Positions 16,288 through 60,702 of a stretch of 64,000 bases of DNA are shown here, piece by piece. The stretch comes from Candidatus Altimarinota bacterium (GTDB lineage: Bacteria; Patescibacteriota; Gracilibacteria; JAHISY01), in NCBI GenBank assembly GCA_028690585.1, contig JAQVAZ010000001.1, forward strand, positions 62,001-126,000. Direction: 5' to 3'. Each line of letters starts with the position of its first letter. The stretch's first letter is position 1. The position numbers and the translations under genes were made by a program. The notes under the pieces were generated by a model. The model saw only the letters and a program-made list of their open reading frames with translations, was not told the origin of the DNA and ran no database searches.

Positions 16288-16330
16288 TTCGAATCCCTGC
16301 CTGCCGGCAGGCAGGCTTCTGGGCCTGCCA
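16288..16330 (+). pseudogene. tRNA-Trp 3'-end remnant interrupted by a 20-bp palindrome
   Basis: TTCGAATC (16288-16295) and CTTCTGGGCCTGCCA (16316-16330) together reproduce the last 23 bases of tRNA-Trp exactly. Between them sits the perfect palindrome CCTGCCTGCCGGCAGGCAGG (16296-16315) and nothing else. The remnant lies 156 bases after the intact tRNA. It looks like an old attachment-site copy later hit by a palindrome insertion. The 155 bases between the two copies contain no gene. Confidence 0.75.
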
Positions 16331-56837: not shown

Positions 56838-57464
56838 TTATTTCCAGCCTCTCGTATTTATTTCCACGCGTGAGGTTTTATTTGTTTCTGTTTCGTAGAT
56901 CTCGATGAGGATGCGATTCACTTCATTGAAAGTTACGGTATCTTCTTCTAACCTTAGGATTTCTCGAAACTGTGCGGTGATGAGGAATTTAAGCAGCTTC
57001 CGGATTTTATCTTTGTAATCTTCAGGATTGCGTAGATAACCGAGATCATTGAAGAATTTCACACCAAAAGCTAATTCCACGAGTGAGAGTTTCTCCGTTT
57101 TTGGAATTACTTTGAAAACTACTTGAAGTAACTCATAAATCTCTGGAAAAGGTTTCTCTGGTGGCAGCAATGCGAGAATCCATTCGGCGATTTTGTAAGT
57201 CACTGCGAGTTGCGGAAGCGTGAAGTCGGGATGCTGCTTACTTGCAACTTCAGTAATCAAAAACAACTCTCCGAGTTTGCGCATCAAGCGCAGATTCACC
57301 TCAGAAAATAACTCAAGACTACCGCCTTTGCGTGATTTTATTTTCTTCACACCTTTGGCAATCGCGGAAACCATTCCCATCTCTTGCGTAAAAATTCGCA
57401 AAATCCTATCGGCTTCTCCGTAGTTTTGTTTGCGCAACACGATACCGCTACTTCTGAATTCCAC
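56838..57464 (-). CDS. recO: DNA repair protein RecO
   Basis: RecO loads RecA onto gaps with RecR and anneals strands. The 208-aa protein has the N-terminal OB fold (SSGIVLRKQNYGEADRILRIF) and a helical C-terminus. The zinc-finger cysteines found in many RecO proteins are absent and the C-terminus is short, which is common in CPR versions. It starts with GTG at 57464 and is divergent from leuS. Confidence 0.85.
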   Translation of the reverse strand: MEFRSSGIVLRKQNYGEADRILRIFTQEMGMVSAIAKGVKKIKSRKGGSLELFSEVNLRLMRKLGELFLITEVASKQHPDFTLPQLAVTYKIAEWILALLPPEKPFPEIYELLQVVFKVIPKTEKLSLVELAFGVKFFNDLGYLRNPEDYKDKIRKLLKFLITAQFREILRLEEDTVTFNEVNRILIEIYETETNKTSRVEINTRGWK

Positions 57465-57502
57465 AAAAATATGCTAATTTACGCTTATCTTACCCCGATT
57501 AT

Positions 57503-60500
57503 ATGGATTATAACCATCTGGAAATCGAGCCGAAATGGCAGAAGCGCTGGGATGAATCTCAGCTTTACCGCGCGGATGATGCTGATACGAAGCGCGAGAA
57601 GCTTTATGTTTTGGATATGTTTCCATATCCGAGTGGCGCAGGTTTACATGTAGGCCACCCAGAGGGCTACACCGCAACCGATATCGTTTCGCGCAAAGCG
57701 CGGATGGAAGGTAAGAATGTTTTGCATCCGATGGGTTGGGATGCCTTCGGTTTGCCAGCAGAAAATCACGCCATCAAAACCGGAATTCACCCAGATAAAA
57801 ATACTGATGCGAATATCAAAACTTTTACCCGCCAAATCAAGGCGTTGGGATTCAGCTACGATTGGGAAAGAGAAATTACTACTAGCAAACCAGATTACTA
57901 CCGCTTCACGCAGTGGTGGTTTCTATTTCTCTACAAGCAAGGTTTAGCCTATCAGAAGGAAGCAGCGGTGAATTGGTGTGGTGATTGCCAGACGGTTTTG
58001 GCAAATGAGCAAGTCATCGATGGGAAATGCGATAGATGTAAGAATCCGGTGATTCAAAAGAAAATGAAGCAGTGGTTTTTCCGCATTACCGATTTCCTCG
58101 AAAAGAAAGGTAATACCAGCGGATTACTTGATGGCCTCGATAAAATCGATTGGCCAGAATCTACCAAGACTGGCCAGCGCAATTGGATTGGAAAAAGCGA
58201 AGGTGCGGAAATTGATTTCAATGTGAAGGGAATTTCGCGCGGAGACTTGAATCGTGATTTTCATCCAAGCTCTGATAGCGATTGTGGAAATTTATTTTTG
58301 GTTACTTGGAATACCGTTGCGGAAAATGGCTGTGAAGAAAATGATTCTAAGAAAAAAGATTTCGCAGTAGGTGAAAAACTGATTGATTCAAAAGCAAAAG
58401 CGCAGGTGATTTTGCAGGGTTTAGCAGAGGCGGAAGATGCTGCGAAAGATAACTTCAGGATTCTTGAAGCGGTGGTAGCGGAAAATCATTTACACGCGGT
58501 TGTGTGGATTAATGATGATGCTGGTGGAATTGGGAAAGTTCTAAATCAACTGAAAGGAGTTTCTGCGAGAAGATTTTTTGAAAACTATCCAGAATTATCT
58601 AATGCGCTTAACTCCACCACCGTGCCTAACCCCACCGTTAACGGTGGGGTTAAAAAAGCTGGTGCAATCAAGAAAGATAAAAATAATAAATCTCAATTTA
58701 ACCATCTCTGGCGCAAAGGCTATCACTTCTCGCTACTTGCCAATCACGCTAGCTATGAGAATGCGATGAATTACATCGCGCAGCATTCAGAAAAATCTAA
58801 GGTTGCGAGTTTCTACGCGCAGCTGCCAGTGGCTTTACGCGTTTTTACCACTCGCCCAGATACTTTATTCGGCGCCACTTTTATGGTGGTAGCACCGGAG
58901 CATTCCATCATCCAGAATCTGAAATCGGAAATCACAAACTGGAAAGAAGTAGAAAAATATCTCGAAGAAGCTTCACGCAAAACTGAGTTGGCGCGCCAAG
59001 CGGAGAAAGAAAAAACTGGTGTAAAGCTTGAAGGAATCTCTGCTATCAATCCAGTGAATGGTAAGGAAACTCCGATTTTCGTAGCGGATTATGTGTTGAT
59101 GGGCTATGGCACTGGTGCGATTATGGCGGTGCCAGCGCATGATGAGCGTGATTTTGAATTTGCAAAAGTAATGAATGAGAAATATGGTAAGAATACAATT
59201 GAAATTAAATATGTAGTGATATCACAAACTGGCAGCTATCAAACACCATCAAAAAAACATGATTTCCAAACTTACGAAAGCTTAGAAGGTTTAAGGGCTC
59301 AGATATTAAAAGATCCAAGTGATGAGGTTGTGAGATCAATTCTCACTGGTTTAATAATTTCCAAAAGAGCTTTTGAGAATGCTGGAATTAGTTTTAATTC
59401 TGGAGAATTTTCTCTTTTAACTACCGAAGAATGTAAGAAAAAGATTATTGCGAAGTTAGAAAATGATGGAGTTGGTAAAGCGAAAATCACTTACAAGATG
59501 CGTGATTGGTTGGTAAGCCGTCAGCGCTATTGGGGTGCTCCAATTCCGATTATTCACTGTGAGAAGTGTGGCGCGGTGCCGGTCGCAGAAGCAGATTTGC
59601 CAGTGAAATTGCCTACCGATGTGGATTTTCATCCAACTGGTGAATCCCCGCTTGTGATATCGGAAACTTTCCACGCGGGAGTCACTTGCCCGAAGTGTGG
59701 AGGCAAAGCGCGAAGAGAATGCGATACGATGGATACTTTTGTTTGTAGCAGTTGGTATTACTTCCGCTATGCCGATCCGAAGAATGATAAAGAATTCGCC
59801 AGCAAGGAATTACTGAAGCAGTGGTTGCCAGTGGATCTTTACGTTGGTGGTGCTGAGCATACAGTATTACATCTCCTCTACTCGCGCTTCTTTACGAAAG
59901 CTGCGCATGCTGCGGGTTTGATTCAATTCGATGAGCCTTTTCTCAAGCTGCGCCACCAGGGAATGATTCTCGGAGAAGATGGTCAGAAGATGAGTAAATC
60001 TCTCGGCAACGTAATCAATCCTGATGAGGTTGTGAAAGAGTTTGGTGCGGATACGCTGCGCATGTATGAAATGTTTATGGGCCCATTCGAGGGTAGTTGC
60101 CCATGGAGCACGAAGGGTGTGATTGGCTTGCGCAGATTTCTTGAAAAAGTTTGGCGGCTGTATGAAAAAGTTTCTGATTCAACTGATACGAAGCTGGAGA
60201 AAACTCTTCATAAAACTATCAAGAAAGTGAGTGAAGATATCGATAGCTTCGGTTTCAATACGGCGATTTCTCAGATGATGATTTTTGTAAATGAAGCTAC
60301 GGGTGAAAAAGAATTTCCTCGCGCTTTTGCAGAAAAATTCTTGTTGCTACTTGCGCCTTTCGCACCACACTTCACAGAGGAATTGTGGGAGAAATTGGGA
60401 AATAAAGATTCGATTCACTCTCAACCTTGGCCAAAATTTGATGCGAAACTCACAGTAGATTCCACCATCACACTCGCAATTCAAATCAATGGAAAACTGC

Positions 60501-60649
60501 GCGATACCATCGAAGTGGCTGCGGATATTTCCAAAGAGGAAGCAATCAAACTCGCGAAAGCTTCACCCAACGCTGCGAAGTGGCTGGAGGGAAATGCCAT
60601 CAAGAAAGAAATCTATGTGACTGGGAAGCTGGTTAGCTTTGTGGTTTGA
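57503..60649 (+). CDS. leuS: Leucyl-tRNA synthetase with inserted HUH/Y1 domain
   Basis: LeuRS charges tRNA-Leu. The 1048-aa protein has class I motifs HVGH (49-52) and KMSKS (829-833). It also has the zinc knuckle WCGDC...CDRC, the CP1 editing domain (TTRPDTLFGA, AVPAHDERD) and a C-terminal anticodon-binding domain. Normal bacterial LeuRS has about 800-860 residues. The excess is an insertion of about 200 residues (243-443) between EGAEIDFNV and ALRVFTTRPD, two adjacent strands at the CP1 boundary. All LeuRS active-site motifs on both sides remain, so the enzyme is probably functional. The gene ends in TGA. Confidence 0.93.
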   Translation: MDYNHLEIEPKWQKRWDESQLYRADDADTKREKLYVLDMFPYPSGAGLHVGHPEGYTATDIVSRKARMEGKNVLHPMGWDAFGLPAENHAIKTGIHPDKNTDANIKTFTRQIKALGFSYDWEREITTSKPDYYRFTQWWFLFLYKQGLAYQKEAAVNWCGDCQTVLANEQVIDGKCDRCKNPVIQKKMKQWFFRITDFLEKKGNTSGLLDGLDKIDWPESTKTGQRNWIGKSEGAEIDFNVKGISRGDLNRDFHPSSDSDCGNLFLVTWNTVAENGCEENDSKKKDFAVGEKLIDSKAKAQVILQGLAEAEDAAKDNFRILEAVVAENHLHAVVWINDDAGGIGKVLNQLKGVSARRFFENYPELSNALNSTTVPNPTVNGGVKKAGAIKKDKNNKSQFNHLWRKGYHFSLLANHASYENAMNYIAQHSEKSKVASFYAQLPVALRVFTTRPDTLFGATFMVVAPEHSIIQNLKSEITNWKEVEKYLEEASRKTELARQAEKEKTGVKLEGISAINPVNGKETPIFVADYVLMGYGTGAIMAVPAHDERDFEFAKVMNEKYGKNTIEIKYVVISQTGSYQTPSKKHDFQTYESLEGLRAQILKDPSDEVVRSILTGLIISKRAFENAGISFNSGEFSLLTTEECKKKIIAKLENDGVGKAKITYKMRDWLVSRQRYWGAPIPIIHCEKCGAVPVAEADLPVKLPTDVDFHPTGESPLVISETFHAGVTCPKCGGKARRECDTMDTFVCSSWYYFRYADPKNDKEFASKELLKQWLPVDLYVGGAEHTVLHLLYSRFFTKAAHAAGLIQFDEPFLKLRHQGMILGEDGQKMSKSLGNVINPDEVVKEFGADTLRMYEMFMGPFEGSCPWSTKGVIGLRRFLEKVWRLYEKVSDSTDTKLEKTLHKTIKKVSEDIDSFGFNTAISQMMIFVNEATGEKEFPRAFAEKFLLLLAPFAPHFTEELWEKLGNKDSIHSQPWPKFDAKLTVDSTITLAIQINGKLRDTIEVAADISKEEAIKLAKASPNAAKWLEGNAIKKEIYVTGKLVSFVV
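58229..58831 (+). other. HUH (Y1_Tnp/RAYT-like) domain inserted in leuS
   Basis: LeuRS residues about 243-443 follow the IS200/REP-associated tyrosine transposase order. LFLVTWNTV is the first strand, followed by the helix around KAKAQVILQGLAEA. The metal-binding H329-x-H331 motif lies in ENHLHAVVWIN, then LNQLKGVSARRFF, LWRKGYHFSLL and the helix AMNYIAQHSEK with candidate nucleophile Tyr424. The usual wording of this family is NHVHLLV, LKGxTAR and YIxxQ/NP. All catalytic residues are present. The frame is open throughout. Confidence 0.85.
58627..58652. repeat. 26-bp perfect palindrome inside the inserted domain
   Basis: The centre is CCCCACCGTTAACGGTGGGG, extended by TAA and TTA on the two sides, with no mismatch. 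It encodes PNPTVNGGV in the loop between the HUH half and the tyrosine half of the domain. Confidence 0.85.
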
Positions 60650-60663
60650 CAGTCAAGCAGCTT

Positions 60664-60698
60664 AATTAGATAATGGGATACTTAATTATCTAATTTTT
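60664..60698 (+). terminator. AT-rich terminator after leuS
   Basis: AATTAGATAAT and ATTATCTAATT form a perfect 11-pair stem with a ten-base loop, followed by a T-run. Its right arm contains TAATTT, which ends 7 bases before the next ATG (60703), so one sequence may serve as terminator and promoter. Confidence 0.65.
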
Positions 60699-60702
60699 AA
60701 AG

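Follow-up and report, generated by a model that had tools for sequence, protein, structure and literature searches.

The leucyl-tRNA synthetase (LeuRS) gene leuS of the window, i.e., of the whole 64-kb stretch of DNA that was analyzed, carries in its reading frame a Y1/HUH transposase-like domain in which all catalytic residues are kept, and a domain of this type occupies the same LeuRS site in 12 further genomes of the class. We explain this best, with a probability of roughly 60%, by a RAYT/REP-like system that is special to the class, whereby an essential synthetase accommodates the transposase, which is gained and lost there without splicing. To our knowledge, a transposase with an intact active site that is kept in frame in a synthetase, at one site and with repeated gain and loss, is undescribed. 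In the literature searched, neither a LeuRS nor any other synthetase with such a domain was found, which agrees with an earlier note on this DNA that knew of no described LeuRS of this kind.

As this note had claimed, the leuS frame is uninterrupted over its 1048 codons and LeuRS motifs flank about 200 extra residues. The gene product scored 995.6 bits against the LeuRS profile TIGR00396 (cut-off 548.4), whereby the match lies on either side of the insert, and the HIGH and KMSKS motifs were both located. By score and motifs the product is a complete bacterial LeuRS; that it is a working synthetase is inferred. The Pfam search placed Y1_Tnp (PF01797) in the middle of the chain, and when the region 58181–58843 was searched alone, a clear Y1/HUH match was obtained (E = 2.2e-10, 41.2 bits, gathering score 23). 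The insert limits were deduced from an alignment with insert-free LeuRS sequences of the same family (Table 1); they are accurate to a few codons only and nearly identical to those proposed before (58229–58831). The insert sits where the first CP1 beta-hairpin turns, only a few residues ahead of the threonine-rich editing motif TTRPDT, in accordance with the CP1 beta turn that had been suggested. The insert consists of little beyond the Y1 domain and linkers, and its frame is open throughout. The postulated catalytic elements were found as well, namely the His-hydrophobic-His motif H329-L-H331, the LKG-x-(S/T)AR helix in the form of QLKGVSARR, and one catalytic tyrosine, Y424. The tyrosine stands in the sequence YIAQHS in the window insert versus Y-[IV]-x-x-N-P in most inserts.

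A single-sequence AlphaFold2 model of the window insert has low confidence (pLDDT 40); the 28 best Foldseek matches of this model in the PDB are all Y1 TnpA proteins (IS608, ISDra2, IS200), and the same TnpA chains are picked up by sequence with the insert-family profile. The full-length single-sequence AlphaFold2 prediction of the window LeuRS was uninformative (pTM 0.23). The window insert scored 31.7 bits against the IS200/IS605 profile NF033573 (cut-off 55) and 35.1 bits against the curated RAYT profile NF047646 (cut-off 80), thus remaining below both cut-offs. Because it does not reach the latter one, we refer to the domain as RAYT-like and not as RAYT.

Table 1. Features of the window leuS gene and its insert (positions within the window)
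Feature	Position	Strand	Basis
leuS, leucyl-tRNA synthetase, 1048 aa, insert in frame	57503..60649	+	open frame, TIGR00396
HIGH-type motif region (PYPSGAGLHVGHP)	57623..57661	+	motif location
CP1 first beta strand (GAEIDFNVKG), left edge of insertion site	58202..58231	+	alignment
Inserted segment, residues 244–443, missing from LeuRS of G003, G004, G334	58232..58831	+	alignment
Y1/HUH transposase-like domain (NLFLVTWN to YIAQHSEK)	58289..58798	+	profile, alignment, structure matches
HUH motif H329-L330-H331	58487..58495	+	invariant, 16/16 inserts
LKG-x-SAR helix (QLKGVSARR)	58547..58573	+	insert alignment
26-nt perfect palindrome TAACCCCACCGTTAACGGTGGGGTTA, in frame, loop between LKG helix and LW motif	58627..58652	.	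palindrome search
FNHLWRKGYHF motif, contains invariant W	58697..58729	+	insert alignment
Catalytic tyrosine Y424 (MNYIAQHS)	58772..58774	+	invariant, 16/16 inserts
Hairpin second strand and threonine-rich editing motif (ALRVFTTRPDT), right edge of site	58832..58864	+	alignment
KMSKS catalytic loop	59987..60001	+	motif location

The survey of the class comprised 353 genomes, which were searched with PF01797 and the insert-family profile. A LeuRS with a Y1 insert was identified in 13 genomes from three families: the window genome (G000) in family f1, G321 and G326 in f33, and ten genomes in f15 (G154, G155, G174, G179, G180, G188, G193, G195, G203, and G221). The domain lies in the identical hairpin turn in every carrier. 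Since 12 more genomes of the class carry Y1 at this LeuRS site, the window insert is neither a chimera nor a recent acquisition. The earlier note did not mention a second carrier gene, ileS, nor the in-frame palindromes with their dispersed relatives, nor the patchy gain and loss described below. In IleRS, a loop of the CP1 editing domain houses a Y1 domain in three genomes of one family (G000, G001, and G004), and this site is empty in G003 and G005 of the same family. The ileS gene of the window genome (contig 40, L069, frame from 2323) encodes a Y1 domain whose active site is intact, and contains a perfect 30-nt palindrome. Its insert is the only one that passes the cut-off of 80 for NF047646 (88.8 bits), while an f15 LeuRS insert reached 61.8 bits. 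No embedded insert was found outside the class in a phylum-wide sample of 380 genomes, which were drawn evenly and partly belong to the same class, and a related-locus search of the genome contigs confirmed only two distant matches. With few exceptions, the stand-alone Y1 proteins of the class are more distant in sequence from the synthetase inserts than these are from each other, and in the Y1 tree the synthetase label requires only two changes. The f15 LeuRS inserts, the G000/G321 pair, the G326 insert, and the IleRS inserts form separate branches. Thus, judging from the sequences, the LeuRS site has probably been hit more than once. For the window insert itself, it is observed that the active site is intact and that another family, f33, has a homologue, namely the insert of G321, which is its closest relative (43% identity).

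Some further observations concern the host genes and the Y1 genes of the class. In G182 (L063/L085) and G197 (L064/L092), an NTP pyrophosphatase of the RdgB/Ham1 type bears a Y1 domain at its N-terminus, and these fusions have perfect in-frame palindromes of 28 and 44 nt, respectively; RdgB is the third host-gene fusion of this Y1 kind. IleRS proteins of f33 and f15 genomes (L170, L171, L172, L175, L176) contain one or two copies of an in-frame histidine phosphatase domain, and that of G321 additionally contains a GNAT acetyltransferase domain, so that the synthetases of the class seem prone to hosting enzyme domains. The leuS gene of G195 is split over contigs 31 and 35 (L065, L122) inside the Y1 insert, perhaps because the population is mixed and only some of its members have the insert, or because of a repeat. 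In G174, a frameshift separates the palindrome of leuS (L056, contig 26) from the Y1 domain, which is either a real inactivation or a hairpin sequencing error. Two stand-alone Y1 genes of another subfamily (L003 on contig 5 of the window genome, L004 on contig 37) are a near-identical pair, and a truncated Y1 copy adjoins the L003 gene, which suggests recent movement. Genomes with TGA falling inside genes occur within the class, from which it may be inferred that the class is a CPR lineage similar to Gracilibacteria.

All 16 synthetase inserts retain the histidine pair of the HUH motif and the tyrosine, including the HUH half of the G195 insert, which is split over two contigs. Across ten aligned inserts, invariance extends beyond these three residues to one valine, one lysine, and one tryptophan, while the other nine inserts are only 21–31% identical to that of the window. 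G179 and G180 were the sole pair close enough for a dN/dS measurement, which yielded about 0.25 for the insert compared to 0.19 for the LeuRS body; the insert is under purifying selection in this pair. For the IleRS inserts, synonymous sites are saturated and dN is near 0.2. The earlier note had left open whether the intact catalytic residues reflect a very recent insertion or a retained function. We prefer the latter, because the catalytic residues are invariant across such divergent inserts and because insert and synthetase body are under similar constraint in the only measurable pair, whereas the recurrence in the class speaks against a very recent insertion.

The presence of the insert is patchy. 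On the tree of LeuRS bodies it needs about 10 gains or losses, nine of which are forced by well-supported branches. G188 has the insert versus an empty site in G187 (LeuRS 87% identical), and the same holds for G203 versus G204 (84%) and for G221 versus G192 (74%). In G188 and G203, the inserted sequence starts with the palindrome, within about one codon of the site. Among the eight f15 carriers compared, which cover a narrow range, the identity of the inserts is not correlated with that of the LeuRS bodies (rho 0.09). This hints at a movement between lineages, with only few genomes to judge from.

The palindrome in the window insert is the longest perfect palindrome of the window and folds as a DNA hairpin (z = -3.2). 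No second copy was found in the genome at up to three mismatches. The palindromes of the other inserts are perfect, 30–38 nt long, and have the forms GTTAACC...GGTTAAC, GTTAGCC...GGCTAAC, or GGTAGCC...GGCTACC; the translations of the insert palindromes include LTYHLGGRLT and LTGDLNRRLT. They are located before the Y1 domain in the f15 LeuRS inserts and in a loop inside it in the IleRS inserts and the window LeuRS. Perfect in-frame palindromes that measure 20 nt or more are present in 11 of the 16 synthetase inserts compared to 3 of 26 further Y1 loci; the Y1-RdgB fusions account for two of these three. With regard to the unpaired GTAG or CGTC tag that is expected at the foot of REP palindromes, the ends are GGTAGC in G174, G187, G188, and G195 and GTTAAC elsewhere, and CGTC flanks the palindrome in G203. 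The flanks of 42 copies from f1 genomes revealed no fixed tag outside the palindromes but only a weak T preference, and neither a target duplication nor a right-end hairpin was identified. The Rfam matches in the vicinity of the insert, to GlsR9 and, at the palindrome, to mir-205, were far under their gathering scores and were judged to be due to chance.

Dispersed palindromes were counted by a 30-mer pattern search in which 16 inner bases were left free. The pattern matched 9 times in the window genome, 28 times in G001, 25 times in G004, 13 times in G195, and 12 times in G154, compared to 0–1 matches for the reversed control pattern in these five genomes. Two or more dispersed 30-mers were present in 13 of 15 carriers versus 9 of 338 non-carriers (Fisher 3e-16). 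The insert's own copy is part of these counts, 12 of the 15 carriers having at least two copies at other positions; the association was not corrected for descent beyond the sister contrasts. Such contrasts were observed for G174, with five copies versus none in G172, G173, and G175, and for the genomes with IleRS inserts (G000, G001, G004), with 9–28 copies versus 1–2 in G003 and G005. In G155, G188, G193, and G195, dispersed copies are identical to the copy in the leuS insert. G187 (loci L108, L155–L157) has an empty leuS site and 15 copies, several of which exactly match the palindrome in the leuS insert of the sister genome G188, as would be expected after a loss. One G187 copy lies in frame in a probable cysteinyl-tRNA synthetase gene. 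G177, G210, and G211 have 7–11 palindromes and no known embedded insert, and no pattern copies were found in the f33 LeuRS carriers G321 and G326. The palindrome structure is kept while its sequence changes, since the 16 inner bases are fully self-complementary in 27 of 32 distinct 30-mers and all pair types occur at several positions. Of the 8 dispersed copies in the window genome, 7 are situated outside long reading frames; copies inside frames occur in other genomes. The dispersed palindromes of the window genome are of the ileS-insert type; thus, their likelier source is the ileS insert and not the leuS insert. Dispersed REP-like palindromes are linked to the ileS inserts and to most f15 leuS inserts, whereas the window leuS palindrome is single-copy, so that for the window leuS insert an active palindrome link is less certain than for the ileS insert. 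Another shared palindromic repeat of the window, CCTGCCTGCCGGCAGGCAGG, is located after the tRNA-Trp gene (16296–16315) and has exact copies in L037, L066, and L101 from other families and in L165 from the family of the window genome.

It might also be that the Y1 domain no longer moves DNA and serves the synthetase as a domesticated nucleic-acid-binding module, for example for tRNA, its own mRNA hairpin, or DNA. The palindrome would then be a regulatory hairpin, and the catalytic residues would be kept for hairpin binding or for an RNA-directed role. Such a module would fit the constraint on an insert that is common to the sister pair G179/G180, the single-copy palindrome of the window, and the histidine phosphatase and GNAT domains in frame in IleRS, which imply that domain capture is general in synthetases of the class. 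However, near sisters have otherwise ordinary LeuRS proteins without the insert, the same domain type occurs at unrelated sites in LeuRS and IleRS as well as fused to RdgB, the dispersed palindromes track the presence of the insert, and all nuclease residues including the tyrosine are invariant. We therefore consider this explanation unlikely, even if it remains the strongest competitor. It is clearly less probable that the domains are passengers, i.e., inert leftovers of RAYT insertions that are tolerated in a surface hairpin and are on their way out. The invariance of the two histidines and the tyrosine in 16 of 16 inserts, while the remainder diverges to 21–31% identity, and a dN/dS of about 0.25 are difficult to reconcile with inert remains, although the patchy presence, the weak profile score and altered post-tyrosine motif of the window copy, and the leuS frameshift beside the palindrome in G174 would agree with them. 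An intein or intron that is removed from the product would likewise lie in frame at a fixed conserved site of an essential gene; it was rejected, since the insert hardly exceeds the Y1 domain, is open throughout, showed no match to intein families in the Pfam and NCBIfam results for the window LeuRS, and no group I/II intron or other credible RNA family was found by Rfam in 57400–60700. An assembly chimera, which the earlier note had named as a possible refutation and which a draft genome of 48 contigs might suggest, was rejected without read mapping, because 13 separately assembled LeuRS genes share this junction, several of them on contigs above 70 kb, the window contig itself measuring 196 kb.

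Inteins and homing endonucleases are known to occupy a fixed conserved site in an essential gene, with patchy presence and empty sites in sister lineages. By general analogy, the insert behaves likewise; it differs in that it has no splicing domain, stays in the product as far as the sequence indicates, and has a different nuclease chemistry. The resemblance to RAYT/TnpA-REP enzymes comprises the HUH motif with a single tyrosine, the LKG-type helix, and, for the ileS and most f15 leuS inserts, a genome-wide set of short palindromes with a link to the transposase gene (PMC2817692, PMC8266576, PMC6006769). TnpA-REP enzymes cut and rejoin single-stranded REP hairpins via their HUH/Tyr site (PMC8266576). 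Known RAYTs, however, are described as domesticated transposases encoded by free-standing, single-copy genes that are often REP-flanked and are vertically inherited (PMC8049555), whereas the present domain is made as a segment of the LeuRS or IleRS chain, its palindrome is part of the reading frame, and its occurrence is patchy. With IS200/IS605 TnpA (IS608, ISDra2) the insert shares the catalytic residues and possibly, judging from the matches of the low-confidence model, the fold; it has no gene boundaries of its own, and no defined left or right ends were found. Palindromes that are translated in frame within functional proteins are known from Rickettsia palindromic elements and intragenic REPs (PMC3733652), and the CGTC that flanks the G203 insert palindrome is the tag reported for Rickettsia conorii repeats (PMC3733652). 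In Rickettsia only a short palindrome is inserted, whereas here a transposase domain comes with it.

In the RAYT/REP-like system that we favor, a RAYT-type Y1/HUH domain with a putatively active catalytic site would sit in the turn of the first CP1 beta-hairpin, which would carry it without harm to CP1, and the transposase would be produced as part of the essential LeuRS or IleRS. The domain may recognize palindromes of about 30 nt as single-stranded hairpins, and by analogy to TnpA-REP its HUH/Tyr site would cut and join them, by which they could spread through the genome and be duplicated at a low rate. This enzymatic activity and the mobilization of the palindromes are inferred, as is the movement of the gene segment, which together with its palindrome would be gained at or lost from a fixed, structurally tolerant site without splicing. 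The essential host gene would ensure expression and permit a loss only if it is exact and in frame. A further-reaching idea, which we regard as tentative and slightly short of even odds, is a homing-like behavior without splicing: the HUH domain, settled in one LeuRS turn and one IleRS loop, would use the essential enzyme as expression vehicle and refuge, move between the LeuRS genes of different lineages, and run its self-encoded palindromes genome-wide.

A large phylogenomic Y1 survey excluded proteins that were longer than expected, regarding them as fusions or misannotations (PMC6006769), and the present case is a warning that surveys which drop over-long Y1 proteins miss such genes. The function and persistence of RAYTs are open questions, and these synthetases allow near sisters to be compared for the presence or absence of the insert and for exact empty sites, which makes the link between a transposase and its REP population directly testable. 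The synthetases of this class thus offer an example of how an essential enzyme could shelter the enzyme of a mobile element without splicing.
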